DNA of 64,000 nt from Albidovulum sp. (GTDB lineage: Bacteria; Pseudomonadota; Alphaproteobacteria; Rhodobacterales; Rhodobacteraceae). Shown here in pieces: positions 5,073 through 21,909 of this stretch. The notes below the pieces were generated by a model, which had not been told where the DNA came from, searched no databases, and was given only the letters and a program-made list of their open reading frames with translations. A program made the position numbers and the translations under genes. The stretch is from NCBI GenBank assembly GCA_028823855.1, contig JAPPFL010000001.1, positions 62,001 through 126,000 of the forward strand, given 5' to 3'. Within the stretch, counting starts at the first letter, position 1. Each line of letters opens with the position of its first letter.

Positions 5073-5115
5073 CCTTCAACCAATTCAATGAAATTATTTT
5101 TTGGAATTGTTAAGG
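5073..5115 (+). promoter_or_regulatory. Imperfect inverted repeat that could hide the dctP ribosome-binding site
   Basis: CCTTCAACCAATTC (5073-5086) can pair with GGAATTGTTAAGG (5103-5115), giving about 12 base pairs with two bulged C and a 17-base A/T-rich loop. The 3' arm covers most of the AAGGAG that serves the TRAP binding-protein gene. In the mRNA this could limit translation until the structure opens. Its energy has not been computed and it may be fortuitous. Confidence 0.35.
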
Positions 5116-5126
5116 AGATGAAGGAA

Positions 5127-6688: not shown

Positions 6689-8043
6689 TGGACCCTGTTT
6701 CGACCGGTTTGGCCGGTCTCGTAGTTTTGGTCCTACTTATCGCCATCCGAATGCCCATCGCCTACTCGATGATTCTTGTCGGCGGAATCGGCATCATGGT
6801 TGTGAACGGTCCGGCGCCGATGCTGAACCAGCTTAAGACATTGGCCTATGGCCAATTTTCGATCTACAGCCTTACCGTAGTTCCGATGTTCGTTTTGATG
6901 GGTTCGCTCGCTTCCAAGGTCGGCTTGTCGAGGGCTCTCTTCAGAGCCGCAAATGCGTGGCTAGGCTGGCTGCGCGGCGGCACCGCGATGGCGGCCATCG
7001 CCGCGTGCGCGGGCTTCGGCTCCGTCTGCGGATCATCTCTTGCCACGGCAAGTACGATGGGCCGGGTTGCCCTGCCCGAATTGAAAAAATATCGGTATTC
7101 CGGTGCGCTGGCGACAGGTTCCCTGGCGGCAGGAGGCGTGCTGGGAATACTGATTCCGCCCTCGGTGGTGCTGATCATTTACGCAATCATCGTGGAAGCG
7201 AATATCGTTACGATGTTTACGGCCGCTATCGTTCCAGGACTATTCGCGGTCGTTTTGTTCCTGTTGACCATCGCCGCATACGTTTTGGTGAATCCCGACG
7301 CCGGTCCCAAGGGCGGATACACGGATCGTCAGGAATTTTTTGCGGCGACGATCGGACTGATTCCTGTGCTTGCTATTTTCGGGTTGGTTCTCGGCGGCAT
7401 TTTCGCAGGGTTTTACAACCCCACCCCGGCAGCAGCAGTCGGCGTTTTTCTTGTATGGGCCTACGGCGCGATCAAGCGCGAAATAACCTTCCGAGTCATG
7501 GAGGAGGCATTAAAGGAGACAGCCTCGACTACCGGAATGATCTACTTGATCCTTCTCGGCGCCGAATTGATGAAAATCTTCCTTTCCCGGGTCGGGTTGC
7601 CGCAGGCGACGGCTGAATGGATAAGCCAAACCGGCATGGCGCCGATGCTTGTCATGATCATTCTGCTGACGGCGCTAATCGTTCTCGGCTGCCTGATGGA
7701 CAGCCTGTCGATGATTCTTCTGGTCATTCCCTTCTTTTGGCCCGTTCTCGTCGAAATCAACGGCGGAATTTATCAGGGCGCGGACGGTTCGGGTTTCGGC
7801 ATGGGCACGGAAGAGCTCAAGATTTGGTTCGGCATATTGGCGCTAATCGTCGTCGAGCTAGGATTGATAACTCCGCCGGTCGGCCTGAACGTATTCGTAA
7901 TTTCGGCTCTGGCGAAAGACACGCCCATGCTTGAGACATTCAAAGGGGTAGCGCCGTTTTTCGGCGCCGAGATCATTCGCGTCGTAATCCTGCTAATCTT
8001 TCCCGCTTTGACGTTGTGGCTGCCCTCGGTCATGGCCGGCTGA
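6688..8043 (+). CDS. dctM: TRAP transporter large permease, DctM family
   Basis: A 451-residue polytopic protein, close to the family norm, that carries the transport path. Recognisable parts are IRMPIAYSMILVGGIGIMV near the N-terminus, LYGxPMF-like VVPMFVLMGSLASKVGLS, the GFGSVCGSSLATASTMG motif, GSLAAGGVLGILIPPSVVL, and at the end LGLITPPVGLNVFVISALAK. ATG 6688 is chosen because it overlaps the dctQ stop (TAATG) and begins the first helix. The frame runs open further upstream inside dctQ without meaning. The gene ends 68 bases before the convergent RraA-like gene. Confidence 0.94.
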   Translation: MDPVSTGLAGLVVLVLLIAIRMPIAYSMILVGGIGIMVVNGPAPMLNQLKTLAYGQFSIYSLTVVPMFVLMGSLASKVGLSRALFRAANAWLGWLRGGTAMAAIAACAGFGSVCGSSLATASTMGRVALPELKKYRYSGALATGSLAAGGVLGILIPPSVVLIIYAIIVEANIVTMFTAAIVPGLFAVVLFLLTIAAYVLVNPDAGPKGGYTDRQEFFAATIGLIPVLAIFGLVLGGIFAGFYNPTPAAAVGVFLVWAYGAIKREITFRVMEEALKETASTTGMIYLILLGAELMKIFLSRVGLPQATAEWISQTGMAPMLVMIILLTALIVLGCLMDSLSMILLVIPFFWPVLVEINGGIYQGADGSGFGMGTEELKIWFGILALIVVELGLITPPVGLNVFVISALAKDTPMLETFKGVAPFFGAEIIRVVILLIFPALTLWLPSVMAG

Positions 8044-8111: not shown

Positions 8112-8810
8112 TCAGGTTCTCGCGGCTTCAAACGCTTCCCACGACCTGCGGAAAGTTTCAAAGTCGTAATTTTCGGCATTTCTAGCCGGTTCAAGCACAA
8201 TGGATTCTGTTTCCAGCATTTGCGCTACGGCCGCGGCAATCTTGGGTTCCACCGAACGAGGCACAACCGCTGCGCCGTGAATATCCGCATGGATCAAATC
8301 TCCCGGACTGACATCCATGCCGAACACGGAGACCGGCGTATCGATTTCAACGACATGGACGAAGGCGTGGCTTACGCCGATTTCTGCCGCGACAATTGGG
8401 AATCCGTCGGGCAATTCGCCTAGGTCTCGTACCAGACCGTCGGTAACGACGCCCGAAATGCCGAAGGCCTTGTGTACCGTCGCATTGACCTCGCCCCAAT
8501 AGGCGCCGCAGATGTTAGGCTTGTCTAAATCCTCGAGCACCGCGATTGCGGGGCGAACGCCATCCGCCATGTACTTGTAATACGCCATTCTGCGTTCTTT
8601 TGCCTGCTGCGGGCCGCCGTCGAAGGGAGCCGAGGCTCGAATTTTGGCGGTTAGTGCGCGCCCGACTATCGGCTGCCCGCCGAAACCGGCCGTAGCAACC
8701 GAACCGCGCGAATAGTGGTAGTGCCCCCTCTCACCTAGGGCCACCTCAATAGCATTGCATACGGTCGGTGTATCGATTCCGCGCAGCAATTCGAAAAGGT
8801 CAATTTCCAT
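8112..8810 (-). CDS. RraA-like / demethylmenaquinone-methyltransferase-fold aldolase family protein
   Basis: A 232-residue member of the RraA-like fold, which includes 4-hydroxy-4-methyl-2-oxoglutarate/oxaloacetate aldolases and lyases of sugar-acid pathways. Seen are DTPTVCNAIE near the N-terminus, the divalent-metal site region FGISGVVTDGLVRDLGEL with the conserved Arg-Asp, and VSPGDLIHADIHGAAVVPR. Last gene of the long minus-strand operon, its ATG lying directly behind the hydrolase stop (TGAATG). RraA proper, the RNase E inhibitor, is shorter and unlikely in this context. The probable role is cleavage or decarboxylation of a keto acid from the pathway; the substrate is unknown. Confidence 0.85.
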   Translation of the reverse strand: MEIDLFELLRGIDTPTVCNAIEVALGERGHYHYSRGSVATAGFGGQPIVGRALTAKIRASAPFDGGPQQAKERRMAYYKYMADGVRPAIAVLEDLDKPNICGAYWGEVNATVHKAFGISGVVTDGLVRDLGELPDGFPIVAAEIGVSHAFVHVVEIDTPVSVFGMDVSPGDLIHADIHGAAVVPRSVEPKIAAAVAQMLETESIVLEPARNAENYDFETFRRSWEAFEAART

Positions 8811-9506
8811 TCAATTTTCCATCCATTCGACCAGCAATTCAGTAACTCGCTCGGGTTTTTCCAGCGTAGGCAAATGCCCGGCGCCTTCGACGACAGCCAG
8901 TTTGGCCCCGGACAATAATTCGGCAATTTCCCAATGGAATGACAACGGGCACAACCGGTCATCCGAACCGCATATGACAATGGACGGGACCCGCGTCAAG
9001 GCTAGCGTTTCCGAATAGTCGGCTCGGGTCTGCAGCGCTCTTGACTGCCGCACGAATACGTCCGAACCAAGTTCAAGCGCCATTTCCATTACTATTTGTA
9101 GAACGGCTCCCCTTCGCTCTCCCGCCGCCAGATAGGAAGGCTTCATCTCGTCTCTTACAACTTCCGCCAACTCGCCACTTTCGACCCTTCGAATGCGCTG
9201 TTCGCGAATTTTAGCGTTTAGAGGCGACTCTCTGCGGCAGTTCGTATCAAGAAACGCAACGCGGGCGACCCGCTCGGGAGCTGATCGCAAGATTTCCATG
9301 GCCACGATTCCGCCCATGGAAAGTCCCGCTAGCGAAAATTTGGGAGGCGCGTCCCGAAGTAGCAGACGAGCAATTTCAGGAATCGTGTCGCCGCGCCCAA
9401 TGGAAGCGGCGAAAACCGAAACGCGCTGCGATAGCGCGGCGATCTGAGGCAGGAATACCCGAGCATCGCACATGTGGCCGGGCAGCAGTACGAGCGGTTC
9501 GGTCAC
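8811..9506 (-). CDS. Alpha/beta hydrolase
   Basis: A 231-residue cytoplasmic serine hydrolase of the alpha/beta fold. It starts with the oxyanion strand PLVLLPGHMCDARVF, has the nucleophile elbow GLSMGG near residue 83, the acid in GSDDRLCP near 190 and the His in GAGHLPTLEKPERV near 212, so the full triad is present. GTG 9506 overlaps the stop of the upstream MetE-fold gene (GTGA). The operon position suggests an ester or lactone intermediate, or a C-C hydrolase. No lid domain of note beyond the mid-protein helical stretch at about residues 110-160. Confidence 0.88.
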   Translation of the reverse strand: MTEPLVLLPGHMCDARVFLPQIAALSQRVSVFAASIGRGDTIPEIARLLLRDAPPKFSLAGLSMGGIVAMEILRSAPERVARVAFLDTNCRRESPLNAKIREQRIRRVESGELAEVVRDEMKPSYLAAGERRGAVLQIVMEMALELGSDVFVRQSRALQTRADYSETLALTRVPSIVICGSDDRLCPLSFHWEIAELLSGAKLAVVEGAGHLPTLEKPERVTELLVEWMEN

Positions 9507-10624
9507 GAAGCGAGGCGCGCTCCTTCGGCGAGCGCTGCAAGCTTGGCATAGGCGATGCTCGGATCGACGGCGCCGAAACCGGCGAATGTTCCGAAGCCGC
9601 AGTCAGTGCCTGCGATGATTCTATCGGCGCCTACAATTCGGGAAAATCGCCTAATTCTTTGCGCTACGAGCTCGGGATGTTCGACGAAATTCGTTGTCGT
9701 GTCGATAACGCCTGGAATCAGGACCTTTTCGTCCGGAATCTCCGATTTCCGATCCTCAAATACCGACCACTCATGCGCGTGGCGCGGATTCGAAGATTCA
9801 AACAAAACGAACTTGGCCCTTACTTTCATAAGCGTCGCAAGTACTTTATCCATTCCGATGTCGCAGATGTGCGGTCCCTCGTAGTTCCCCCAGCAGATGT
9901 GAACGCGCACGCGCGACGGATCGATTCCATCCAGCGCAAAATTGAGAGCTTCGACGTTGCTCTCGGCCACGGCAACGAATTCGCTATCGCTCAAGTCGGA
10001 AAACATGACGTGCCTCGACAGCCCGAGATCCGGGCAATCGACCTGGAGAAGCAGCCCGCTATCGACAATCGCGCGATATTCTTCGCTCATAGCTTGGGCT
10101 AGAGCTTCGAGGTATGCGTCTCTACTCGGCCAATAGTCGTTGGGAAGAAAAAGGCTGATAACCCCGGGCGATGCGGCGTTCATGAATCCCTCCGGCGCTC
10201 CGTGCGCAGCAATTCCGGATTTGAGATTTGCGATGTCCATTTCCAGTTCGTTGCCCGGTTTCTTCCTTATTTCGCCGACGCACTTGGGTCGAGAATATTG
10301 CGCCGTTCCGCCTTCCTTCGCCAGACGCCTTAAAAATTCCGGAAATTGCAGCAAATCGCCCGGAGGGCTACGCGGCGTGTCTCCGGCGAATCCCGTATAC
10401 CTATCCTTGACGTAAGTCGCATAGGATATCTTTGAAGTCTCACCGTCGGACACGATGTCGACCCCGGCTTCCACTTGCAACCGGACGGTTTCGGAGCATG
10501 CTTCCGTCATTGCCGCGTCGAATGCAGACTGCTCGTAAGCTTCTCCTCTCTCCTTGGCAAAAAGAAAATCCGTGACTTTCTGACTGCGAGGCAAGCTTCC
10601 AACATGAGTTGTCCTTACTGCCAT
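9503..10624 (-). CDS. MetE C-terminal-domain-like zinc protein (UROD/MetE superfamily)
   Basis: A 373-residue TIM-barrel protein related to the catalytic half of cobalamin-independent methionine synthase and to epoxyalkane:coenzyme M transferases. The N-terminal RTTHVGSLPRSQ is the family signature. Zinc ligands fit: His242 and Cys244 in VHICWGNYEG, Glu276 in VLFESSNPR, and Cys342 in AGTDCGFG. The N-terminal half of true MetE is absent, so it is not a housekeeping methionine synthase. Such stand-alone proteins activate a thiol for transfer to or from an organic substrate, with the real acceptor unknown. It lies between the bicupin (75-base gap) and the hydrolase (4-base overlap). Confidence 0.87.
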   Translation of the reverse strand: MAVRTTHVGSLPRSQKVTDFLFAKERGEAYEQSAFDAAMTEACSETVRLQVEAGVDIVSDGETSKISYATYVKDRYTGFAGDTPRSPPGDLLQFPEFLRRLAKEGGTAQYSRPKCVGEIRKKPGNELEMDIANLKSGIAAHGAPEGFMNAASPGVISLFLPNDYWPSRDAYLEALAQAMSEEYRAIVDSGLLLQVDCPDLGLSRHVMFSDLSDSEFVAVAESNVEALNFALDGIDPSRVRVHICWGNYEGPHICDIGMDKVLATLMKVRAKFVLFESSNPRHAHEWSVFEDRKSEIPDEKVLIPGVIDTTTNFVEHPELVAQRIRRFSRIVGADRIIAGTDCGFGTFAGFGAVDPSIAYAKLAALAEGARLAS

Positions 10625-10699
10625 TGTTCTATCGCCTCCTTTCTTCCGATCTCGGGACTTTTCCGCGCCGCGCGATCAATCGCGACGGCAACCGCCGAT

Positions 10700-11668
10700 T
10701 CACGGTCGCCAAGTCGGGCCCGCCGGGTCGGTCGTGCCCCTGACTCTGAATAATCCAGCCGGGCCGGAAACGGCAGGTTCGATGCATCTTCCAAGTCCCG
10801 GCGGTACAAGGCAAGTATCGCCCGGCGCTAGAACATCCGACGTGGCTTCCCAGGAAATCCGCCAGTATCCTTCGGTAGGCATCAATACTTCGTACTCGCC
10901 GATGCAGTAACGGAATGAATCGGTGTTTGATCCCCTCGAAATGAATTCCACCTCGAATCCGGGCCTGTCTACGATCATTGCGTCCTCGCCGATTACCCTC
11001 GCGGGCCGGCCTTGCGACAGCGAGATCATGTCCCATTTTCGCGCAATGTAGGCCGGAACGACGTCGCGAGCGCCAAGTTCCGGGAAATCTTCCAGTTCTT
11101 CATCGGAAAGCAACGGCATGGGCGTTATGCCTGCGGGAAGGCTCTCGCCTTTCTTCGCATCGTAAAGCCGCCCGGTGCTAGCCAGCACCAAGCCGTGTTC
11201 TTCGGCATCTTGAACGACTTGCGGAGCCCAGATGACTCCTCCTCCGGCATCGTCGCCGCCAAGTATCGCCATGATCATCCCGTGCTCCTGGCCAATATTC
11301 TCGAATCCCCGGAATATTCCTGTAGGGATATCGAATATATCGCCCTCTTCGAGCACAACTTCGCCGGCATTGCCCCATCGGCCCCAAAAGAAGCGCCACC
11401 TGCCTTCCAGAACGAAAAACACTTCCGCGGTTCGATGGGAATGCAGCGAGTTTCGGCATCCCGGCGGCTGCCCGGCGGCGCCGATATTGAAGCCGGGCGT
11501 TTCCTTGATATGCACGTGCTGGTCGGGGCTTTCCGACACGCCGCCTCCGACAATCGTAAAGTTCTCCTTTTTGTCGGAACCTGGCGTATGCGCATCGATA
11601 AATGCCGTGCGGCAGGGAATTAACTCGCCGTGGCGCACGATGCGAGGCGATGTGGATTGCTGTTGCAT
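10700..11668 (-). CDS. Bicupin protein
   Basis: A 322-residue protein with two cupin barrels. The first has a good metal-binding set: LHSHRTAEVFFVLEG near residues 76-90 (His-x-His and Glu), then EEGDIFDIPTGIFRGFENIG. The second, RYCIGEYEVLMPTEGYWRI followed by LAPGDTCLVPPGLGRCIEPA near 255-310, keeps the fold but not an obvious His cluster, so it is probably structural. No signal peptide. Bicupins include dioxygenases such as gentisate-type ring cleavers and isomerases; neither can be chosen from sequence alone. It sits inside the catabolic operon, 62 bases behind the SnoaL-like gene. Confidence 0.85.
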   Translation of the reverse strand: MQQQSTSPRIVRHGELIPCRTAFIDAHTPGSDKKENFTIVGGGVSESPDQHVHIKETPGFNIGAAGQPPGCRNSLHSHRTAEVFFVLEGRWRFFWGRWGNAGEVVLEEGDIFDIPTGIFRGFENIGQEHGMIMAILGGDDAGGGVIWAPQVVQDAEEHGLVLASTGRLYDAKKGESLPAGITPMPLLSDEELEDFPELGARDVVPAYIARKWDMISLSQGRPARVIGEDAMIVDRPGFEVEFISRGSNTDSFRYCIGEYEVLMPTEGYWRISWEATSDVLAPGDTCLVPPGLGRCIEPAVSGPAGLFRVRGTTDPAGPTWRP

Positions 11669-11730
11669 GTAATCCTTTCTTTGGATGTAGATGACCGAAA
11701 AAACTACCTTTCAAACAAAAACTCCCGAAT

Positions 11731-12711
11731 TCAGCCGGCGTGAATGAGAATTTGCTTCCAGATGGCGGTTTCGTCGAGGATCACGTATTCCCTACGAATT
11801 CCTCTGGGTCCGAATTCCGCATGCGACGCGCCCATCACGTAGACATCGGCGCCTGTTGGCGCGCCGAACATTCCGAAGCCGTCGTGGGCGCCTGCCAGAC
11901 TCCATCGAACCGCGGCGCGGCGGGGCATTCCCTGCTCGCTCAGCCCGGTCGCGTGATCAATTTTGAATTCCGCCGCCGGAAACGATGAACGAAGTCCAAG
12001 CCAAAACGAGTCGGCGGCCGATCGGCCATGTGCCGTCTTCCCGCCCGGATGCTCCAAGTGACAGGCGCGATCATACTCCGTCGAGACCACCGCCAGATCC
12101 GCATGCATAATTCTAGAAAGCGTATCGGCGTATCGATTTCCTGTCTCGTCGTTATTTCCTTCGCCGCGATACGGCCCATTGAAACCGCCCGGACTAAAAG
12201 GGCGCGTACACGACTCGAAACCGCCTTCTCGATCGATCGCTTCCATGGCAAAGGTTCTCGGGTCGCTTCCCAGCTGCCGAACGATCGCTCCTTGGTCGCG
12301 TATCAGCCATTCGTCGTCGATTTGCCATCCGCATTCCTCGCAGGCATGGGCATGGCAATCCGCAATAGTCCGATAGGCAAGTTTTTTTCCGGTTGCCGCT
12401 CCGTACTGGCCGTTGCCGAGGTGCGTGGCGGTCGAAAATAGCCTGTGGGAAGAAAGCCAGCTATCCTCTCCCATTCGCGCCCAAATGACATCTTCGCCTA
12501 GAAGCCGTCGATCCGGAAGTTCGGCCAGCGTCGCGCACGTTGAAACTATGACCGATTCATGGCCGACGACGATTCCTGTCGGCGAGCGAACGAAAATTCC
12601 CTCGGAGTAGTAGCGCCGCAAACTGTCGACTTTGCGATGTTCCCATATTTCTTCGGTTATTCCAAGAATATAGTCGCAAAAATCGGTGTAGCGAGGAAGC
12701 TGTTCAGTCAT
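11731..12711 (-). CDS. Tandem SnoaL/NTF2-like domain protein
   Basis: A 326-residue protein that reads as two SnoaL-like halves. The N-terminal half includes YILGITEEIWEHRKVDSLRR, YYSEGIFVRSPTGIVVG and AYRTIADCHAHACEECGWQI followed by DEWLIRDQGAI. The C-terminal half repeats the theme with LSRIMHADLAVVSTEYDRAC, GRSAADSFWLGLRSSFPAAE and RREYVILDETAIWKQILIHAG. SnoaL-like folds include aldol cyclases, hydratases and isomerases, and proteins of this length occur in alphaproteobacterial catabolic operons without assigned function. The ATG overlaps the LacI gene end by 8 bases. No secretion signal. A catalytic role in the pathway is inferred from position only. Confidence 0.75.
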   Translation of the reverse strand: MTEQLPRYTDFCDYILGITEEIWEHRKVDSLRRYYSEGIFVRSPTGIVVGHESVIVSTCATLAELPDRRLLGEDVIWARMGEDSWLSSHRLFSTATHLGNGQYGAATGKKLAYRTIADCHAHACEECGWQIDDEWLIRDQGAIVRQLGSDPRTFAMEAIDREGGFESCTRPFSPGGFNGPYRGEGNNDETGNRYADTLSRIMHADLAVVSTEYDRACHLEHPGGKTAHGRSAADSFWLGLRSSFPAAEFKIDHATGLSEQGMPRRAAVRWSLAGAHDGFGMFGAPTGADVYVMGASHAEFGPRGIRREYVILDETAIWKQILIHAG

Positions 12712-13813
12712 GATTCCCGCTCCCGGGAATTTTCGCCGATCGCCTCACGACCAGATGTCCGGGGATAGCGAACTGCGTCGTTTCCGAATGCGAATTTTCA
12801 ATTCTTGCTAGCAAGATATTGACCGTGAGGTCGACCATCTCGTCGATAGGCTGACGATAGGTCGTCAGGTCATAGGCCTTCCATCCCGCTTGCGGCGCAT
12901 CGTCGAAGCCGACGACCGAAACATCCTCGGGAACGCGAAGACCGAGCTCGTAGCGAATAACGTCCATAACCGCGAACGCCATGTGGTCGTTGCCCACGAA
13001 TACTCCGTCGGGACGACCGGCGGGCGCCGAAAATATCGACCGGGCCGCCGCGGCGGCGATATTCCTGTTCCAACGGCCGTCGATTCGGTCATGCAATTCG
13101 AGCCCGGCTTCGACCAGCCCGTCGCGAAATCCCGCTTCCCGGTCAAATCCTGTCGATGATTCGCTCCAGCCGGCGATATGAGCGATTCTGCGGCACCCGG
13201 AATATGCCATGAAACGAGCGATCCGCTTTGCTCCGTCATAGTTGTCCGACGTGATCGCGGTCGGTCCCCGCTTGCCCTGGTGGCGATTGAACAGCACTAG
13301 CGGAATACCCGCCGCGCTACAGCGGTCGGAAAGGGAATTCGACATTGAAACCGAAGCCGCGATGATTCCGTCCACCTGGTAGTCGAGAAGAGCATTTACG
13401 ACCCGATCCAGTTCTTCGGCTGCATTGGAGGCCATAAATACGAGAACATGATAACCTTTCGCCTGCAACACGTGCGAGATCCTTTCAAGTGCCATCGAAT
13501 AGAAGGAGTTTCCAAGATAGGCTACTACCATGCCGATGATCCGCGAACGGCCGGTAATCAGGGATCGGGCTAAAACGTTCGGGCGATACCCCAGTGAATC
13601 CGCCACCTGCATGACTTTCTCAAGGGTCTTGGGCGAAACGGACGCTCCCGGCGAAAATGCTCGACTGACGGCCGATTGGCTGACGCCCGCGAGCCTCGCC
13701 ACGTCGTGCGACGTTACTCTGGCGAATGGTCCCGATCCGGAATGCGCGTTTGGTTCGTCGCTACCCTCGACGCGCGAATTCCGGTCCAGAGGTTTTGAAT
13801 CTTCTCGCGTCAT
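12704..13813 (-). CDS. LacI-family transcriptional regulator
   Basis: A 369-residue repressor type. The helix-turn-helix is at about residues 34-60 (VTSHDVARLAGVSQSAVSRA) with the hinge region following (SLGYRPNVLARSLITGRS). The periplasmic-binding-protein-like effector domain spans roughly 90-365 (GMVVAYLGNSFYSMALERIS; DGVFVGNDHMAFAVMDVIRY; EDVSVVGFDDAPQAGWK). ATG 13813 is preferred because it overlaps the SDR stop (ATGA); ATG 13825 is possible. The N-terminal extension of some 33 residues before the helix-turn-helix is polar. It is encoded inside the operon it presumably controls, which would give autoregulation; the effector is likely the imported sugar-like substrate or an intermediate. 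Confidence 0.92.
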   Translation of the reverse strand: MTREDSKPLDRNSRVEGSDEPNAHSGSGPFARVTSHDVARLAGVSQSAVSRAFSPGASVSPKTLEKVMQVADSLGYRPNVLARSLITGRSRIIGMVVAYLGNSFYSMALERISHVLQAKGYHVLVFMASNAAEELDRVVNALLDYQVDGIIAASVSMSNSLSDRCSAAGIPLVLFNRHQGKRGPTAITSDNYDGAKRIARFMAYSGCRRIAHIAGWSESSTGFDREAGFRDGLVEAGLELHDRIDGRWNRNIAAAAARSIFSAPAGRPDGVFVGNDHMAFAVMDVIRYELGLRVPEDVSVVGFDDAPQAGWKAYDLTTYRQPIDEMVDLTVNILLARIENSHSETTQFAIPGHLVVRRSAKIPGSGNHD

Positions 13814-14571
13814 CCTGCGGTCCATCCGCCGTCGACAATTATGTGAGTTCCCGTCACCATGGCCGACGCGTCAGATGCCAGAAACTGAACAGCGCCCATG
13901 ATGTCTTCCGTTTCGCCTATCCTGCCAAGTTTGATCTTGGATTCGATCCACGCGACACGTTTCGGGTTTTCGAATGTCGGCGCCGTCAATTCTGTCCGAA
14001 TAAAGGTCGGGCAAATTGTGTTGACTCTGACTCCATGCGGTCCCCATTCGATCGCCATGGCTTTAGTCATGCCTTCAACTGCATGCTTGGAGGCGCAGTA
14101 GACCGAACGGTCCTGGCCGCCAACAAGCCCCATTTGGCTGGAAATTTGAATTATCGAGCCGCCGCCTTCCGCCTGCATTCCTCGAGCCGCTTCTCGCGCA
14201 ACAATGAACGCCGCGCGTACGTTAGCCTCCATTATGTCGTCGAAGTCGTCGATTGAAGTGTCAAAAGCAGATTTCGGGCGAGCGATTCCGGCAGAATTCA
14301 CGAGAATCGCAAATGGCCCGTGACGATGCATTGCGTCGCGAACCGCGACCTCGTCCGATGCATCGAATGGGACACCAATGGCCGTGAAACCATTCCCAAC
14401 CAGGGTTGCGGCCGCCGATTCAACGGCGCTCGCGCGACGGGAAGCGATCACGACTGAAGCGCCGTTTTCTGCCAGCGCGACCGCGCAGGCAAATCCGATA
14501 CTTCCGGTACCCCCGACCACAAGCGCGCTGCGACCGTCGAGACGAAAAGAAGGAGAGCGCGGAACTTTCAT
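13810..14571 (-). CDS. Short-chain dehydrogenase/reductase
   Basis: A 253-residue classical SDR. The cofactor motif is [20 protein letters not shown] (TGxxxGxG form), with ASRRAS favouring NADP(H) because of the arginines after strand 2. Further motifs are NSAG (about 90), the catalytic Ser in QISSQMG, YCASK with catalytic Tyr and Lys, and the C-terminal [13 protein letters not shown] 14571 overlaps the stop of the HpsN-like gene (ATGA). The frame extends upstream inside that gene but without similarity. It probably oxidises or reduces a hydroxyl/keto group of the pathway substrate next to the HpsN-like dehydrogenase. Confidence 0.93.
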
Positions 14572-15896
14572 TCCGCGCTCGACGGATAGGGAGCGCTTCC
14601 GGCATAGGGGATATTCATTCCGCCGTAGCGCCGCAGTCGCAGGTTGGCTTGTTCCGCATGACCGGCGAATCCTTCGAGTCTGCAAAGGCGCGAACAGTAT
14701 TCTCCGATACGCGTCGCCGCCTCGTCCGTAGTGATTTTTTGGTATGTATGCGTCTTGAGGAATTTTCCGACCCAAAGCCCGCCCGTATATCGGCCCGCCT
14801 TGCGGGTAGGGAGCGTGTGATTGGTCCCGATTACCTTGTCCCCGTAGGACACGTTCGTCCTTGGCCCGAGGAACAACGCGCCGTAACTCGTCATATTGTC
14901 CAGGAACCAGTCGTCGCGGTCCGTCATGACCTGAACATGCTCCGAAGCTATGCCGTTCGCGACTTCCAGCATTTCTTCGTAGGTGTCGCAAAGCACGACC
15001 TGTCCGAAATCCGACCAGCTTTTCGCCGCCGTCGCGGCGGTCGGTATAATCCTCAGGATTCTATCGATCTCGTCCAAAGTTTCGGAAGCCAGTTTCCCGC
15101 TGTTGGTGACGAGCACGGCCGGCGAATCGAAACCGTGCTCGGCCTGGCCGATTAAATCGGTCGCGCACATTTCCGGGTCGACCGTATCGTCGGCAATGAC
15201 CATTGTCTCTGTTGGTCCAGCGAACAAATCTATTCCAACTCTGCCGAACAATTGCCTTTTAGCCTCCGCTACGAACGCGTTTCCGGGTCCGACGAGCATG
15301 TCGACGGGCGCGATTTCGTCGGTTCCCAGGGCCATGGCGCCCACTGCCTGAATTCCGCCCAAAAGATAAATCTCATGCGCTCCTCCGAGGTGCATCGCCG
15401 CGATTACAGACGGCGTGGGTTCGCCGTTCACCGGGGGCGTGCATGCGGCGATTCTCGGAACTTCGGCCACGCTTGCCGTCACCGTCGACATGTGCGCCGA
15501 AGCTATAAGCGGAAACTTCCCCCCCGGGATGTAGCAGCCGACCGACTGAACCGGGATATTCTTGTGACCGAGCACCACGCCAGGCAGCGTTTCAATCTCG
15601 ATGTCCTTTATCGAATCCCGCTGGGCCTTGGCAAAATTTCGGATCTGCTCCTGCGCGAATCGGATGTCGGACAGGTCGCGGTTGGGAACTTTGGCAACCA
15701 GAGATTCGATTTCGGTTTCCGAAAGTCGGAACTTTTCAGGAGCATGACCGTCGAATTTTTCGGACAGCTCCCTTACGGCATTTCCTCCCCTGGCGTCGAT
15801 GTCCGCAAGCGCGGATTCGACAATGCTCCTGGTTTTTTCATCGCCCGCGTTCTTTTCCCGGTCCGATTTCCCTGTTTTCAAGTATACTACCGTCAT
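14568..15896 (-). CDS. Histidinol-dehydrogenase paralogue, sulfopropanediol dehydrogenase (HpsN)-like
   Basis: A 442-residue zinc- and NAD-dependent alcohol-to-acid dehydrogenase of the HisD superfamily. HisD-type features are [54 protein letters not shown] and [15 protein letters not shown] with the Gln/His zinc ligands. The C-terminal third departs from biosynthetic HisD and carries [19 protein letters not shown] and [17 protein letters not shown], which I associate with HpsN-type enzymes oxidising 2,3-dihydroxypropane-1-sulfonate and with uncharacterised catabolic relatives. ATG 15896 overlaps the upstream stop (ATGA); TTG 15917 is less likely. There are no his genes around it, so histidine synthesis is improbable. 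The exact substrate is unproven. Confidence 0.86.
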
Positions 15897-16447
15897 TCTC
15901 CTGTTCCAGTTTCGCAACCTGGCCTCGGCGGCTCTCTATCGCCTCTATCGAATGCTTCCCAGCCTCTGCCTTCGAACACGTCGTGGCCTAGCTGGAACAA
16001 AACATGGGGGAAATCCACCATAACCCAATTATCGGCAATTTTTCCGTCGATAACCTTCCAAAAGTCCATGTAGCGGATTTCTACGCGCTTTCCTGTAGGC
16101 TGAATGCCAAAAAATTCGCCGGTATGCACAGCTTCCTGGCGTCCGAACGCAGCCGCCCACTCGCCCATAAAGAGCCGAGCCTCGTCAATGCAGACCTTGT
16201 CGGAAAATGCTGCCTGGAACGGGCGCTGCCAATTGTCCTGAAACTCGCGAAGCCCGAATTTCGAGCCGCAGCCGAAATTGCCCATCCAGCGAAAATCGAA
16301 ATTGAAAAATTCGCCGATATCGTCGATGCGGTGTTCGTTGAGGCCATCGACCATGTTCTCGATCACGCGCCGAGTCTCGCACGTTCGCGAAAGATCCGCA
16401 TTTGCACTCAGGGCAGCTTGTATCGGTCTTTCTCCTTGGGCGGGCAC
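15893..16447 (-). CDS. SnoaL/NTF2-like protein
   Basis: A protein of up to 184 residues with one SnoaL-like domain: [59 protein letters not shown] and [20 protein letters not shown], the usual cone-fold polyketide-cyclase-like pattern with His/Asp candidates. GTG 16447 is the only clear start and lacks a convincing ribosome-binding site. An AAGGAG occurs just inside the frame, so the true start may lie further in, or the original start was lost when the permease region upstream decayed. It is followed by the HpsN-like gene with a 4-base overlap. The function is inferred only as an operon member. Confidence 0.75.
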
Positions 16448-16551
16448 TATTCGGTTCCGCCGAATGCGTATTTGCCGCGTACTCTCGCTAGCAACCCGCC
16501 CGAAAAGCGCGACAAGAAAACGATATCAAGACTCTTCATCGACTACCCTCT

Positions 16552-17307
16552 CACAGCGCCGGCGGTAAGCCCGCTGACGATTTGTTTCTGGAATCCGTGA
16601 CGAGCAGCAACAGAGGCGCGGAATCGGATACGGCCGCGGCTACTGCCTCGACCTGATCCGTTGAAGTCGCCTCGCGACTTACAATACTCGCGATTGCAGG
16701 CACCATCGACTGGTACACCGCATCGAGCAGAAGCGATGCTGCCAGCAAATCGCAAAGGGCAGGCAAATAGCTGAATTGGCCGGCCGCAACGACACCGCGC
16801 CAATTCACCCGCAAAACTGCACATCGAATTGCTCGGAAGCGGGGAAAGGAAAGCTGCCTGGCCGCGGACGGTTCTGGCGACGCTGATGACGGCCATGGCA
16901 ATGGCGAGTCCCGTTCCCCAAGCGGGCGAAAGGGCAATAAGCGCGAACGCAACGCTGAACCGCAGCGCCTTCCGGAAGTCGATTCCCATGAGCTTCTTCC
17001 GGCTAAAGCCATCCAAAGCCTCGGCGAGCCGCTTCAGCGCCAAATCATTCCGGTAGCTGCCAAGGCCGACGAATTCCCCTACGGTAACCAGGATGCCCTC
17101 GTCGCCAGCCAGCGGCCGGGTCCTGTTATCGATTACGCAATTCTGCGCAACTAAGCCCGGAGTGCAGCTTTCGATTTCAATCGTTTCGTAAACGGCTCGG
17201 GTAAACTGGAAACCATGTACGAATACGCCGGCGAACGGAGCAGCGATGAAAAGCATCATAAAAGGTATCGAAGGTCCCGCGATTGCGGCGGAAGTTCGGG
17301 ATTTCAT
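16552..17307 (-). pseudogene. Fused relic of MalF- and MalG-type ABC permeases
   Basis: Between the binding-protein gene and the SnoaL-like gene, where two permease genes would be expected, only one damaged stretch remains. Its start looks like a MalF-type permease: MLFIAAPFAGVFVHGFQFT, then DFRKALRFSVAFALIAL and TGLAIAMAVISVARTVRG. Its end, FQKQIVSGLTAGAVRG followed by a stop, is the standard C-terminus of MalG-type permeases. The middle is unreadable in any one frame and the EAA loop is missing. A deletion across both cistrons plus frameshifts explains this. One frame happens to stay open for 254 codons but cannot encode a working permease. Confidence 0.8.
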
Positions 17308-17419
17308 CCGCTCGTCCCTTCGCCTTGGGCGAAATTATTACTTTGCGCCGAAAAGCAGTGCATATCGACTCTCATGAAGAAACAACGAGGCGCCCTAGCG
17401 AGCGACCCCACTGGAATAT

Positions 17420-18625
17420 CTACAACAGCCCATGTTCATCGGCTGCTGCAATGTATGCCGCCTCTACGTTGGCAAGCGTATCCGCGGCGCTCGTCGCTCC
17501 GGTCAAATAATCGGAAACTATGTTACCCAACGCAGTATGCATGAGACCCATCGCCTTGCCGGCAGGATATGGCACAGCGCCGTTGGCAGCCGTGGCAGCG
17601 GCGCCCGCGGCTGCCTCTCCAGCTACGAATCCATCTATGAGCCAAACCGCCGCGTCGTTGTGTGCAACAACGGTTTCCGTGTCGAGGCCTTCAAGGGCGA
17701 CTCTAAATGCCGCGTCAGCCTCTTCGTCGGAAATATTTTTTGCTATCACGATTCCGTCCCACCAAATCGTGGACGCGGGACGCACAGCGCCCATTGGCGC
17801 CGATGCCATGCCGACCATACCGACAACTTGGCTATCCTCGGCATTGTTCATCGCCGCCGCCCTCGACTGCCAAAGATTTGCTATCGCGATTTTGCCTTGC
17901 TGGAACTGCTTCTGGACATACGTCGAATCGGAAACCAGGAATTCAGGGTCCATAAACTTCGTGAGACGTTTCATCATGACGAGAGTAGCGATGCCGGTCT
18001 CGTTATTCACAGATGGCTCATGTCCCTCGCCGAAGAATTCGCCGCCCTCGCCTACGAAAATGTTTACGAATTCTTGGGCTAAATTCCAGCCGCTCATATA
18101 GGTTCCGCCCAAGGGATAGTCTACAACTCCCGCAGCCTGAATTTTAGCTGCAGCGTCAAGCACCTCGTCGTATGTGGTGGGGACCGCGATGCCCAAATCG
18201 TCAAGAATGTCCTTGCGATACATAAGGTGCTGGACGTTCACCATCATGGCAATCGCCCAAATTTCGCCGTCGAGCTTGATCAGCTGATTCGGCGAAAGAT
18301 GCTGCCCATAAATCGCGACCAAGTCGTCTAGCGGTCGAATCGTTCCCTGGTCGTATAGCGGAACGAATGGGGAATTCGACACGCCGCCAATATGGTAAAG
18401 AGATGGATTTGCCGCAAAAGCGGCCGGTTGCTTGAAACGGTAATCCCGATCAAGCTCGGCTTCGAAATTGCCGCATTCCGCCATCGATGCCGCTACAGCC
18501 TTAAATGCGTCGAAATCCGCTGTGAGAGAATTCAATGGTATAGAGTTTTCAAAGGCGCATTCGGCCCATGCGCCGGATGCAATTATAGTAACTGCGCCCG
18601 CAGCGACGAAGTTCTTAACTTTCAT
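17420..18625 (-). CDS. ABC transporter sugar-type substrate-binding protein (family 1)
   Basis: A 401-residue periplasmic binding protein. The leader MKVKNFVAAGAVTIIASG ending in AWA fits a signal peptide. The mature protein has family-1 features: DGEIWAIAMMVNVQHLMYRK, DDLGIAVPTTYDEVLDAAAK and FQQGKIAIANLWQSRAAAM, with IWWDGIVIAKNISDEEADAA near the C-terminal lobe. The frame is intact and shows no obvious damage. It follows the ATPase by 79 bases and precedes the wrecked permeases, so its importer is either dead or uses permeases encoded elsewhere. The ligand is presumably a sugar or polyol-like compound. Confidence 0.9.
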   Translation of the reverse strand: MKVKNFVAAGAVTIIASGAWAECAFENSIPLNSLTADFDAFKAVAASMAECGNFEAELDRDYRFKQPAAFAANPSLYHIGGVSNSPFVPLYDQGTIRPLDDLVAIYGQHLSPNQLIKLDGEIWAIAMMVNVQHLMYRKDILDDLGIAVPTTYDEVLDAAAKIQAAGVVDYPLGGTYMSGWNLAQEFVNIFVGEGGEFFGEGHEPSVNNETGIATLVMMKRLTKFMDPEFLVSDSTYVQKQFQQGKIAIANLWQSRAAAMNNAEDSQVVGMVGMASAPMGAVRPASTIWWDGIVIAKNISDEEADAAFRVALEGLDTETVVAHNDAAVWLIDGFVAGEAAAGAAATAANGAVPYPAGKAMGLMHTALGNIVSDYLTGATSAADTLANVEAAYIAAADEHGLL

Positions 18626-18704
18626 ATAGTTCTCCGTGATGTTGCGGCATTCGGCACTGCATGTCGGGTCGACGGCGCGTCGGCTTTCGCGATGAAATCA
18701 ATGT

Positions 18705-19760
18705 TTATCCGGCTTCGATGGCGTTACCTGTGCTCTGATCAAATACATGGCAAATAGCGGCAGGAACGTTAACTGAAACGTTTTCGCCAATTTCTGCGCG
18801 ATAGTCTTTTGCTGCCTTTACTGCCACCAGCGACCCGGCGACGCGCACCGTCAGCATTGTCGCGTCGCCCAGTAGTTCCATTGTGAACACCGGAGCCGTT
18901 ATTTCGCCGCCGCCGTCTTTTCGTATCGAGGCGTCCTCGGCGCGGAATCCCAAAGTTATCGGTCCGTCTTTTGCCTTTAACCCTTCGACGCGGATGAATT
19001 CCGCTTCGAAAACGCCCTTCGAAACGCTGCCGTCGAGCAAATTCATGGCTGGCGAGCCAATAAAACCGGCAACAAATGCATTGGCGGGTCGATCATAGAT
19101 GTCGGCCGGCGAACCGACTTGCTGCACCACGCCTCTATTCATAACGACCACGCGGTCCGCCAAGGTCATGGCTTCGATTTGGTCGTGCGTCACGTAAATC
19201 GTCGTGACTTGCAGTTCATGGCTCAAGTTCTTGATCTGCGCCCGGGTCGAAACGCGTAGCTTTGCATCGAGATTGGACAAAGGCTCGTCCATAAGAAACA
19301 CATTCGGTTCGCGAACGATCGCCCGCGCTAGAGCGACCCTTTGGCGCTGGCCGCCCGACAATTCCGCAGGTCGGCGGTGCATGAATTCGGTCAATTCGAC
19401 CATGCTTGCGGCGCGCTCCACCCGTTCGCGGTGCGTCGAGGAATCGACTTTGCGCACCTTGAGTGGGAACCGTATGTTTTCGTACACATTCATATTTGGA
19501 TAAAGCCCGTAAGACTGGAACACCATTGCCACGTCTCGGTCCTTCGGGTCCAAATCATTGACGACTTTGCCGCCAATGCGAATTTCGCCTTCCGTCACAT
19601 CTTCCAGCCCGGCAATCATCCTCATCGTGGTTGTCTTGCCGCAACCGGACGGCCCGAGCAGGACAAGGAACTCGCGGTCGGCCACTGTCAAATCGAATTT
19701 CTCGACTCCGGTAAATCCCCCCCACCGCTTCGAAACATTTCTCAACTGGATTTCCGCCAT
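18705..19760 (-). CDS. ABC transporter ATPase, MalK/UgpC type
   Basis: A 351-residue ATPase with an intact nucleotide-binding domain: Walker A GPSGCGKTTTMR near residues 37-48, Q-loop VFQSYGLYP, signature LSGGQRQRVALARA, Walker B VFLMDEPLSNLDAKL and the H-loop YVTHDQIEAM. The C-terminal 110 residues form the regulatory TOBE-type domain. ATG 19760 is chosen because AAGGAG lies 10 bases upstream and the protein then begins MAEIQLRNVSKRW. It is the first gene of the long operon ending at 8112. A palindrome lies 36-58 bases before the start. Confidence 0.93.
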   Translation of the reverse strand: MAEIQLRNVSKRWGGFTGVEKFDLTVADREFLVLLGPSGCGKTTTMRMIAGLEDVTEGEIRIGGKVVNDLDPKDRDVAMVFQSYGLYPNMNVYENIRFPLKVRKVDSSTHRERVERAASMVELTEFMHRRPAELSGGQRQRVALARAIVREPNVFLMDEPLSNLDAKLRVSTRAQIKNLSHELQVTTIYVTHDQIEAMTLADRVVVMNRGVVQQVGSPADIYDRPANAFVAGFIGSPAMNLLDGSVSKGVFEAEFIRVEGLKAKDGPITLGFRAEDASIRKDGGGEITAPVFTMELLGDATMLTVRVAGSLVAVKAAKDYRAEIGENVSVNVPAAICHVFDQSTGNAIEAG

Positions 19761-19795
19761 AGCATTCGCACTCCTTTTCGGCGATGCATACGAAT

Positions 19796-19818
19796 GCAAT
19801 TCGATAGTATCAAATTGC
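19796..19818. promoter_or_regulatory. 23-base palindrome upstream of the long operon, candidate operator
   Basis: GCAATT-C-GAT-AGT-ATC-A-AATTGC: nine of ten arm positions match around a 3-base centre. It lies just upstream of the ribosome-binding site and start of the first operon gene, where a repressor site would be expected. The LacI protein encoded in the operon is the obvious candidate binder, though LacI-type sites usually have an even symmetry with a central CG, which this lacks. Confidence 0.5.
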
Positions 19819-20480
19819 GCGCTTTGCAACACAAGATTGGCGACGAGGATGCATTTCCCCTACCTTCCAATACAATCAACGGAATCGCTATTTTGATCGG
19901 TAGCGCTCCCGGTCTCTTCCTAATCGGGGTCGATGGAGTCCACTACCGGTAATCTTCGAATATTGAGTTTCAAACCGAAGACGATTCCTACGCTCGAATG
20001 CGCCGACACCGCCTAAGCGATTCCGCGGTCGCCGCGAGTTTCGCCGAGGGAATCGAATCCGGGCTTTTCGGCCTCGCAAAGGAATGAAAATTTGTGCTTG
20101 CGAAACAGTTTGCCAAACAAAGCGCGTGATTGGCCTGATCCAGCAATATTTTGTTCAATTGGCCGTCGGTCGCGTCTTTGGAAATAGGCGTCTGTCCATG
20201 CGCCGGTCTTCACTCGTCTATCCGAAATGTGTCGGACCTGCACCTTGCAGGTCGCAGCGGGCCAAGCGAGCCGCGAATAGCTGAAAGCAATGAATCCGAA
20301 TGCATGAGCCGCAACTATTCACGATACGGTTCAATACGTAGTTGAGCCCGAGCAAATTCGACCGCGACTCGATTTCGAGACGGCGCCGGCCCCTAGCGAA
20401 ATCCTTGCGCGCAGATCGCTTAAATTGCGATCTGAGCGCAAAACTGCGCTTTCAATGAACATTCTCGAAGGCGACCGACC
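19819..20480. other. Gap without a recognisable gene
   Basis: About 660 bases upstream of the ABC/HpsN-like operon and downstream of the racemase-type gene. Short frames on both strands show no family similarity. It presumably contains the operon promoter near its left end and the end of the Liv/racemase transcript at its right end. No terminator hairpin with a T-run is evident. Confidence 0.4.
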
Positions 20481-21179
20481 CTAATGGGCTACCGGAAATC
20501 CATAGCCCCCGATCTTGGACGTGCGAAGGTTCGCGGCAACGAGGGCTTCGGCAAACGTGACGGCGCAACTCAATCCATCGACGACCGGGAGCCCGAATTC
20601 ATTCGTCAACTGCTCCGCCAGGCTGGTCATTCCTGCGCATCCGAGAACGATGGCGTCCGATTGATCTTCTCTGATCGAGAGCTCGATTTCGCGTCGAATG
20701 ATTTCAGTAGTCTCCGGAAACTTGTGCTCCAGTTTCAATACGGGAATGTCGGTCGCCCTGATTCTGGCGCAGCGGGATGCCAATCCGTATTTGATCAAGT
20801 TGGCTTCCAGTACGGGCACCGAGCGCGAAAGGGTCGTAACCACGGTGAATTTGTTGCTGAGCATGCTGGCCGCATGGCAGGCGGATTCGCCGATGCCCAC
20901 GACTGGCACCTCTAGCATACACCGTACTGCGTCCAGCCCGGTATCGTCGAAACACGCGATTACGACTCCGTCAACGTCATTATGGCGCTCGACTTGCGCT
21001 AAAAGTCCGGATAGGCAAGCCGCGCCGTCAAAAAAACCTTGGATGCTTGGCGGTCCCGACAATGATCCAACCGCGACGATTTGCGTGTCGGGCCTCGAGA
21101 CGCGCCGGGCCGCGCGCGAAATACTCTCGGTCATTGACGCCGTACTGTTGGGATTGGCAACGAGCAATTTCATGGCCAT
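20481..21179 (-). CDS. Aspartate/glutamate/hydantoin racemase family protein
   Basis: A 232-residue member of the Asp/Glu racemase superfamily, hydantoin-racemase-like. It begins MAMKLLVANPNSTASMT, the standard first strand, and has both catalytic cysteines: VVIACFDDTGLD near residue 80 and VLGCAGMTSLAEQL near 185. The enzyme inverts a stereocentre next to a carboxylate or a hydantoin ring by a two-base mechanism; relatives include maleate isomerase and allantoin racemase. ATG 21179 is chosen over GTG 21191; either way it adjoins or overlaps the livF stop. Operon position suggests it handles the compound imported by the Liv system. Confidence 0.9.
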   Translation of the reverse strand: MAMKLLVANPNSTASMTESISRAARRVSRPDTQIVAVGSLSGPPSIQGFFDGAACLSGLLAQVERHNDVDGVVIACFDDTGLDAVRCMLEVPVVGIGESACHAASMLSNKFTVVTTLSRSVPVLEANLIKYGLASRCARIRATDIPVLKLEHKFPETTEIIRREIELSIREDQSDAIVLGCAGMTSLAEQLTNEFGLPVVDGLSCAVTFAEALVAANLRTSKIGGYGFPVAH

Positions 21180-21180
21180 T

Positions 21181-21906: not shown

Positions 21907-21909
21907 TAG

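Follow-up and report, generated by a model that had tools for sequence, protein, structure and literature searches.

What does a long, compact minus-strand operon of Albidovulum sp. break down? The operon lies in a window of 64,000 nucleotides (the whole stretch of DNA analysed), where a sequence-only reading had placed twelve consecutive genes or relics at 8112–19760 and proposed one inherited unit for the degradation of a sulfonate or thio-substituted polyol. The block is real, but an end at 19760 clips the reading frame of the ATPase gene, which can reach a GTG at 19832. Eleven intact genes and one permease relic occupy 8112–19832, in the minus-strand order ABC ATPase, solute-binding protein, permease relic, SnoaL1, HisD-like dehydrogenase, SDR, LacI regulator, double-SnoaL protein (SnoaL2), bicupin, MetE-fold protein, alpha/beta hydrolase and RraA-like protein. 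Measured gaps confirm the 4-base overlaps (gap −4) at three junctions (SnoaL1/HisD, HisD/SDR and MetE/hydrolase); two overlaps are longer (SDR/LacI, −16; LacI/SnoaL2, −8), the hydrolase/RraA gap is 0 and the five remaining gaps are +62 to +112. For the HisD-like gene, the 4-base overlap comes from a start at the ATG at 15896 (442 aa) rather than at a TTG farther upstream (15917). All eleven intact genes have dN/dS values of 0.04–0.16 in comparison with G001, a relative of the same genus; these values indicate purifying selection.

The same gene set and order were found in other genomes, in keeping with inheritance as one unit. To gauge this, loci were picked by bicupin similarity, and counts therefore describe a biased sample: matches above 100 bits gave 162 loci, 147 of them distinct, of which 112 had 8 kb of flank on either side. 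From 561 relatives, the best 80 were kept; 40 loci were taken from the listed places, and four to six weaker ones were then added. The rough gene caller used for neighbouring genes misses some, and the counts reported are instead from a tblastn survey. Within the 112 distinct full-flank loci, a HisD-type dehydrogenase of the window kind (HisD1) occurs in 85, an SDR in 87, a LacI regulator in 90, an alpha/beta hydrolase in 84 and an aldolase in 72, although SDR, LacI and ABC proteins form such large superfamilies that unrelated neighbours may be among those counted. The MetE-fold gene accompanies HisD1 in 53 of 56 loci. Much the same gene order is present in many marine and soil bacteria, some of them plant-associated, and cluster versions occur in Rhodobacterales, Hyphomicrobiales, Gammaproteobacteria, Enterobacterales, Sphingomonadales and Deinococcus. 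A minimal version on a Klebsiella plasmid comprises HisD, SDR, MFS, hydrolase, aldolase and bicupin, and two loci (L201 and L262) hold only the bicupin/hydrolase/aldolase trio with a transporter. Among the 27 full-flank loci lacking HisD1, 22 also lack 3-oxo-tetronate (Otn) genes, and some retain the bicupin alone. Prevalence was 57/195 in relatives with E ≤ 0.001 as threshold, 42 of the 57 having E ≤ 2e-95; it was 25/398 in genomes of the phylum (E ≤ 1e-25) and 8/369 in the class to which G526 belongs (E ≤ 1e-40). Comparison of gene neighbourhoods showed the operon neighbours to be linked in related genomes; this recurrence of gene set and order, with the dN/dS of 0.04–0.16, makes the operon more than a chance assembly. 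For its catabolic make-up we found no matching textbook pathway, as had been suggested, and a search of the open-licence literature found no described cluster with such a gene combination. Given the wide spread of hosts, the substrate would be a carbon source common in sea water, in soil and on plants.

Import in the window strain raises the question of decay. The ATPase (MalK/UgpC type; 18705–19832; GTG start, later ATG possible; dN/dS 0.042 against G001) and the solute-binding protein (SBP_bac_1; 17420–18625; PF01547, E 1.1e-18) are intact. At 16546–17307, comparison with the intact permease pair of G001 (locus L033) reveals a relic in which the start of the first permease (aa 1–158 of 341) is fused to the end of the second (aa 279–385 of 385), and the reading frame changes once more close to the end. 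With both permeases truncated and fused, and with a HisD-like protein whose end branch is long (0.43; median, 0.18) and which alone carries GKFPL among 107 cluster copies, the operon could be a decaying remnant without an importer. We regard this as rather improbable: dN/dS is low in every intact gene, no operon gene other than the permeases is broken, and the permease damage could itself be an assembly error. Moreover, a plus-strand TRAP transporter (5088–8043; DctP 5088–6164, DctQ 6161–6688, DctM 6688–8043) converges on the operon, with the same arrangement in G001, and TRAP transporters serve the cluster in other genomes. The adjoining TRAP transporter is a possible substitute importer.

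The HisD-like zinc/NAD dehydrogenase (14568–15896; PF00815, 440 bits) bears most directly on the proposed sulfonate substrate. It had been called HpsN-type, and its overall similarity agrees, since among solved relatives HpsN scores highest (384 bits; best HisD, 250); the residue diagnostic of HpsN is absent. In the published HpsN study, His126 binds the sulfonate and marks HpsN (PMC11382572); Lys353 of HpsN also contacts the sulfonate. The His126 position is Leu in the window and Met in 87, Leu in 19 and Ile in 1 of the 107 cluster copies, whereas Lys353 (window Lys361) is kept in 107/107, as are all four zinc ligands (Gln, His, Asp, His) and the catalytic Glu-His pair. In a quick tree of 81 rows, for which 30 of the named window-type rows were drawn at random and which carried a long-branch warning, the protein fell outside biosynthetic HisD (SH-aLRT 100 around the HisD clade), in a separate clade sister to HpsN, the two sister groups having SH-aLRT of 95 and 100. 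Three divergent HisD-like proteins without several zinc-site residues (L238_0, L252_0 and L247_2) were left out of the tree. Because the source genome has its own HisD elsewhere and the tree separates the two, a host histidine gene was rejected. On sequence grounds, the window protein is a third type of the HisD superfamily, neither HisD nor HpsN. Proteins of this superfamily in catabolic clusters are routinely named 'histidinol dehydrogenase'; a short motif, G[KR][FY]P[MLI], tells the window clade from both HisD and HpsN and ties it to a recurring pathway.

Catabolism of a sulfonate, 2,3-dihydroxypropane-1-sulfonate (DHPS) or a relative, would suit a protein whose closest characterised relative and sister clade is HpsN and which keeps Lys353. 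It is nevertheless very improbable as the pathway, and was rejected as the leading reading, since His126 is missing from 107/107 cluster copies. Separate copies with the HpsN motif GRY[AS]H occur at six loci in the same bacterial family, and four genomes (G002, G008, G009 and G015) hold both types. Nor do the families listed for the ten scanned operon proteins include a sulfolactate lyase or other desulfonation gene of DHPS pathways.

The thiol chemistry ascribed to the MetE-fold protein (9503–10624; PF01717, E 2.9e-12) found firmer ground. Core methionine synthases are marked by a zinc HCEC set and homocysteine-binding Ser/Glu/Asp (PMC7857596). As described earlier for the window protein, the four zinc ligands are present and the N-terminal half of MetE is absent; by alignment, all seven zinc and homocysteine residues (S10, E62, D196, H242, C244, E276 and C342) are kept in 65/65 relatives. 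Its nearest solved match, MesD (3rpd), reaches just 29.4 bits. The source genome has two other MetE-fold loci, along with MetH-like pieces below cut-off. The residues are fitting for a predicted removal of a methyl group onto homocysteine, and they speak for homocysteine as the probable thiol rather than a thiol in the substrate. A thio-substituted polyol may yet be the substrate. Members of this group would take a methyl group from a catabolic substrate and so supply methionine; the literature excerpts searched describe no MetE-fold protein in such a role.

Cleavage by the RraA-like protein (8112–8810; PF03737, E 2.5e-17; CHA (4-carboxy-4-hydroxy-2-oxoadipate) aldolase 3noj, E 2e-6) was likewise upheld. 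It is of the aldolase/decarboxylase type with DGxxRD, whose Arg and Asp we take to be the metal/pyruvate motif of RraA-family aldolases; R128 and D129 are kept in 53/53 relatives, and residue 124 is Asp in the window and Asn in 49 of 53. In distant cluster versions, an HpaI-type aldolase takes the place of RraA; these aldolases fall below every family cut-off, with HpaI/GarL-type families nearest. Two or more Otn genes occur in 5 of the 112 full-flank loci, none with HisD1 (0/112 hold both); the argument from Otn genes rests on five distinct loci from few lineages. OtnK passed its NCBIfam cut-off in 3/3 tested and OtnC in 2/2; OtnI, an aldose-ketose-type isomerase like hydroxypyruvate isomerase, is below cut-off in Thioclava, and none is annotated in Ensifer. 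The exchange of RraA for HpaI and the five Otn versions together suggest cleavage to pyruvate and a C4 acid, which would imply a C7 skeleton.

A C7 core is also offered by an ulosonic or ulosaric acid pathway, in which the RraA/HpaI aldolase would split a linear 2-keto-3-deoxy acid, for example 3-deoxy-lyxo-heptulosaric acid or Kdo from plant pectin or algal scales, into pyruvate and an aldehyde acid, with the bicupin as isomerase, the hydrolase as lactonase and HisD oxidising a terminal CH2OH. Heptulosaric acid matches the carbon count, and the nearest aldolase families, the OtnI isomerase type, the sugar-type ABC import with LacI and the plant-associated carriers all agree; methylated Kdo, moreover, occurs in algae. 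Such a pathway would leave three SnoaL proteins without a role and would present HisD with a neutral terminus, despite the retained Lys353; no glycosidase belongs to the constant cluster genes, and a search of the open-licence literature on heptulosaric acid yielded no such cluster or pathway paper. We judge it unlikely.

The bicupin (10700–11668; PF07883, E 3.5e-10) has a single metal-type site in its N-terminal cupin, H76/H78/E82, with R120 at the place of a fourth histidine (H/H/E/R in 112/112); its model has a mean pLDDT of 68.7, and the metal-site residues 76–79, under pLDDT 50, are its weakest part. Fold searches with this model tied dioxygenases, ureidoglycine aminohydrolase, oxalate decarboxylase and seed globulins, and the protein may be a dioxygenase or an isomerase. 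The PcaD/BioH-like alpha/beta hydrolase (8811–9506; PF12697, E 9.8e-14) has a triad of S63, D183 and H211, kept in 58, 52 and 58 of 58 relatives. Both SnoaL proteins belong to the SnoaL/NTF2 superfamily by Pfam match and fold: the single-domain SnoaL1 (15893–16447; PF07366, E 2.1e-18) is nearest to solved SnoaL (1sjw, E 5.1e-12), and the tandem SnoaL2 (11731–12711; PF07366 and PF12680; model pLDDT 94.1) matched many such folds with no single function. The SDR (13810–14571; PF13561, E 9.7e-59) is nearest to sugar dehydrogenase subfamilies, among them GolD/DthD and glucose 1-dehydrogenase (205.9 bits, below the cut-off of 215). This last affinity, with the many functions tied in the bicupin fold search, could indicate some other polyol or sugar-acid pathway with the bicupin as isomerase and a carbon count other than C7. 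That possibility, a minor one that nonetheless deserves some weight, would leave both the HisD/Otn alternation and the MetE-fold protein unexplained.

The reading that we prefer, and to which we give roughly even chances, is a catabolic operon regulated by LacI (12704–13825; PF00356 and PF13377) for a small, probably anionic, polyhydroxylated compound with a C7 core. It retains the single unit, the catabolism, the thiol chemistry and the RraA-like cleavage of the sequence-only reading, and drops the sulfonate. From the gene set, its conservation and the kept active-site residues, we infer the following steps. The compound would be imported by the sugar-type ABC system, or by TRAP or MFS transporters in other genomes. 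In two steps, the HisD-type enzyme would oxidise a CH2OH beside a carbinol to the carboxylate; its Lys361 would contact an anionic group, with no HpsN-type histidine to hold that group. The SDR would form a neighbouring ketone. SnoaL proteins may perform acid-base steps (dehydration, isomerisation or hydrolysis), and in lineages with the MetE-fold protein a substrate methyl would pass to homocysteine to give methionine. The core of bicupin, hydrolase and aldolase would open and split the skeleton into pyruvate and an oxo-acid. In HisD versions, the CH2OH would be oxidised first and the second fragment would be a dicarboxylate; in OtnK/OtnC/OtnI versions, it would stay unoxidised, leaving a 2- or 3-oxo-tetronate for the tetronate route to complete. 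This pair of fragments would set the substrate core at C7. Ascorbate, a reductone with a CHOH-CH2OH tail, was set aside by reasoning alone, because its C6 skeleton yields no pyruvate unit for the aldolases; pyridoxine, pinitol, pantothenate and methylerythritol were also considered, and none is known to match the gene set.

Gadusol and the mycosporines are C7 cyclohexenones that carry a 2-methoxy group and, in the ring, a carbon of the form C(OH)(CH2OH). Degradation of such sunscreens, gadusol and those of the mycosporine type, is a long shot as the function of the pathway, and the chemistry given here is predicted. An enolate anion would stand in for the DHPS sulfonate while the HisD-type enzyme converted the ring CH2OH to COOH; SnoaL proteins or the amidase would remove amino acids, and the MetE-fold protein would move the methoxy methyl to homocysteine. 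The bicupin would cleave the resulting reductone, and the aldolase would split the C7 chain into pyruvate and oxaloacetate. In Otn clusters, gadusol, with an extra ring OH and its CH2OH unoxidised, would give pyruvate and 3-oxo-tetronate, the OtnK substrate. A search of the open-licence literature found no pathway paper on mycosporine breakdown, and in the sections used here of one article, the sole bacterial fate mentioned is removal of the amino-acid side groups by Vibrio harveyi (PMC3083659). If true, this assignment would provide the bacterial fate of mycosporines that is so far missing.

The unit can be compared with several characterised systems. HpsN, the R-DHPS 3-dehydrogenase of Cupriavidus pinatubonensis (8v35), shares the fold family, zinc ligands, Glu/His pair and Lys353 with the window type, which differs in lacking His126, in having G[KR][FY]P[MLI] where HpsN has GRY[AS]H and in its gene neighbours. 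HisD shares the superfamily, zinc site and catalytic pair but lies in another clade and has Tyr where the window type has Lys at 353. Quercetinase and gentisate/salicylate dioxygenase share the bicupin fold (model pLDDT 68.7). The cupin motif of quercetinase/gentisate-type dioxygenases has a histidine as its last metal ligand, whereas the window bicupin has Arg120 in place of the fourth histidine. CHA/HMG aldolases share the RraA family and the R and D of DGxxRD, yet the window protein scores far below the curated LigK/PcmE cut-off (39.8 against 304.5 bits). The tetronate route of OtnK/OtnC/OtnI, present in the five alternative versions, is absent from the window's unit. The core methionine synthases MesA–MesD (PMC7857596) likewise consist of the catalytic half only and keep all zinc and homocysteine residues; the window protein differs in standing in a catabolic operon, where a compound of the pathway would donate the methyl group.

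The operon (8112-19832, minus strand) belongs to a genome of 5.6 Mb and comprises 11 intact genes and one relic, with overlaps of 4 bases in three gene pairs and longer overlaps in two. Pfam and NCBIfam assignments cover a solute-binding protein, a SnoaL protein (SnoaL1), a member of the histidinol dehydrogenase superfamily (HisD1; motif G[KR][FY]P[MLI]), an SDR, a LacI protein, a double SnoaL protein (SnoaL2), a cupin (the bicupin), the catalytic half of MetE, an alpha/beta hydrolase and an RraA protein; the ATPase was named from its own sequence and its relatives. The minus-strand genes just upstream (20481-22701) presumably encode a racemase-like protein of the Asp/Glu or hydantoin type and two ABC ATPases of the branched-chain amino-acid type, and they probably form a separate operon.

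Gene neighbourhoods were surveyed with the bicupin as bait: matches above 60 bits within ~8.5 kb were counted at 112 distinct loci whose flanks reach 8 kb or more in both directions. Window-type HisD was found in 85/112 loci, LacI in 90, SDR in 87, the hydrolase in 84, SnoaL in 81, ABC parts in 77 and the MetE-fold protein in 56. An aldolase of either type was present in 72 (RraA in 53, HpaI-type in 24). Less frequent were an amidase (13), TRAP components (12), a second HisD type (11) and two or more genes of the tetronate route (Otn genes; 5). Since genomes having any PF00815 protein carry 1-4, a chance HisD neighbour is expected, by our estimate, in ~1% of loci or fewer. The operon is a real, conserved unit of catabolic make-up, and the proposal, made from the sequence alone, that the block was inherited as a unit is borne out. 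Annotated carriers include Sinorhizobium medicae, Ruegeria sp. THAF33, Roseibium algicola and Marinovum algicola. Bicupins 33-40% identical occur in Novosphingobium, Pantoea dispersa, Klebsiella michiganensis, Rhizorhabdus wittichii, where no HisD adjoins the bicupin, and Deinococcus QL22, where a shorter cupin accompanies four ester cyclases, an ABC system, a hydrolase, an HpaI-type aldolase, HisD, LacI and SDR. At six loci (L087, L118, L125, L139, L143, L207), near relatives of the bicupin stand without the usual partner enzymes.

The relic (16546-17307, minus strand), recognized by comparison with the intact pair of a same-genus relative (G001), lies between the solute-binding protein and SnoaL1 genes. 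It is a start-to-end fusion of both ABC permease genes with frame changes, in which residues 1-158 of permease 1 run into residues 279-385 of permease 2, read in a different frame; in G001, both permeases (341 and 385 aa) are intact at the same place. Across the 11 intact genes, identity to the G001 counterparts is 75-88% and dN/dS is 0.04-0.16, synonymous sites being close to saturation. These low ratios indicate that the operon genes are kept by selection, although the operon's own ABC importer looks lost. A complete TRAP transporter (DctP, DctQ, DctM; 5088-8043) converges on the operon, has the same position beside the G001 operon and could substitute for the broken importer; in several relatives, TRAP systems are a component of the unit.

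Structure prediction placed the SnoaL2 model (pLDDT 94.1) as two SnoaL/NTF2 domains, best matched by 3i0y (Z 16.1, rmsd 2.0, 132 aligned) and 5evh (Z 14.3, rmsd 2.5, 120 aligned), respectively. The bicupin model has a mean pLDDT of 68.7, falling below 50 at the metal-site residues, and matches bicupins of many functions. Its top Foldseek match was quercetin 2,3-dioxygenase 1gqh (E 1.4e-14, TM 0.54), and VIA-align gave a tie between the DUF861 protein 1sfn (Z 18.2, rmsd 3.0, 215 aligned) and the quercetinase YxaG 1y3t (Z 18.0, rmsd 3.1, 223 aligned). The N-terminal cupin residues H76, H78, E82 and R120 are kept in 112/112 bicupin rows.

Bicupin, hydrolase and aldolase form a core that is accompanied by only a transporter at L201, L262 and in Roseomonas. 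The hydrolase Ser and His are kept in 58/58 copies and Asp183 in 52/58. RraA-type and HpaI-type aldolases substitute for each other and occasionally occur together; the HpaI-type assignment is certain at superfamily level only, as scores of 155 and 187 bits compare with a family cut-off of 369. Members of this superfamily cleave 4-hydroxy-2-oxo acids to release pyruvate. The core is extended by OtnK and OtnC, mostly with OtnI, in Vibrio, Salinivibrio, Thioclava, Ensifer and a pair of Rhodobacterales-family genomes; NCBIfam cut-offs were exceeded for OtnK in 3/3 tested, OtnC in 2/2 and OtnI in 1/2 (Vibrio only). HisD1 and Otn genes shared none of the 112 full-flank loci. With HisD1 in 85/112, its absence from all five Otn loci would be rare by chance (~0.001, ignoring kinship). 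A simple account of these gene distributions is that HisD1 and the Otn genes handle the same CH2OH: it would be oxidised prior to cleavage in HisD1 versions, and in Otn versions it would stay on the C4 fragment and be dealt with by the tetronate route. Counting against this account, Otn genes are absent from 22/27 full-flank loci without HisD1.

Zinc in E. coli MetE is bound by His641, Cys643, Glu665 and Cys726, and homocysteine by Ser433, Glu484 and Asp599, according to PMC7857596. The aligned residues of the MetE-fold protein (H242, C244, E276 and C342; S10, E62 and D196) are all present in 65/65 cluster copies. As the protein is without the folate-binding half, the methyl group it transfers probably comes from a pathway compound. 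Of the 56 loci with this protein, 53 also have HisD1; it is not among the genes listed for Otn-type loci. Separately, eight loci (e.g., L154 12963-13565; L062 8723-9337) carry a class I SAM methyltransferase gene between the bicupin and MetE-fold genes.

Pyruvate plus a C4 fragment would add up to a C7 skeleton. The best-supported candidate substrate is a polyhydroxy acid or cyclitol of that size, bearing a CH2OH beside a carbinol and methylated in the lineages with the MetE-fold protein. Gadusol and the mycosporines, which combine the C7 skeleton, the CH2OH next to a carbinol and methylation, are the boldest candidates; the main rival holds that heptulosaric or octulosonic acids are degraded instead.

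A sulfonate, as the sequence-only reading had suggested from HpsN-type features, is not supported by a residue test. In HpsN, the R-DHPS 3-dehydrogenase, the hallmark His126 of GRY[AS]H binds zinc and then the sulfonate, aided by Lys353, as stated in PMC11382572. Of 107 cluster-borne copies mapped to HpsN, 87 have Met at position 126, 19 have Leu, one has Ile and none has His; six separate copies from the same bacterial family carry the HpsN motif itself. Gln248, His251, Glu318, His319, Asp352, Lys353, His359 and His411 are kept in 107/107. A natural reading of these residues is that the window-type enzyme still grips an anionic group by means other than the HpsN histidine. The window's own copy (14568-15896) is the sole GKFPL among the 107 and has a long end branch (0.43 versus a median of 0.18); its specificity has possibly shifted. 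Elsewhere, an amidase adjoins a second enzyme of the superfamily (motif GR[FY]PL/I) in L083, L102, L104, L108, L113, L149, L155, L159 and others, and L247 and L252 (genomes G003 and G017) encode a further, divergent type with GKG[SA]F and zinc-site changes of Gln to Glu and Asp to Asn.

A quick maximum-likelihood tree built from 81 rows shows four groups, each lying on one side of a branch: the window type (36 rows, SH-aLRT 95), HpsN (7, 100), the amidase-linked GR[FY]PL/I enzymes (12, 99) and HisD (26, 100). The window type and HpsN join with an SH-aLRT of 95, a sister relation that is provisional given the tree program's warning of long branches meeting. Compared with HpsN, the window type retains Lys353 but lacks His126 and stands as a separate group; compared with biosynthetic HisD, which has Tyr at residue 353 in 25 relatives and in the window's own genome, it carries Lys and again groups apart.
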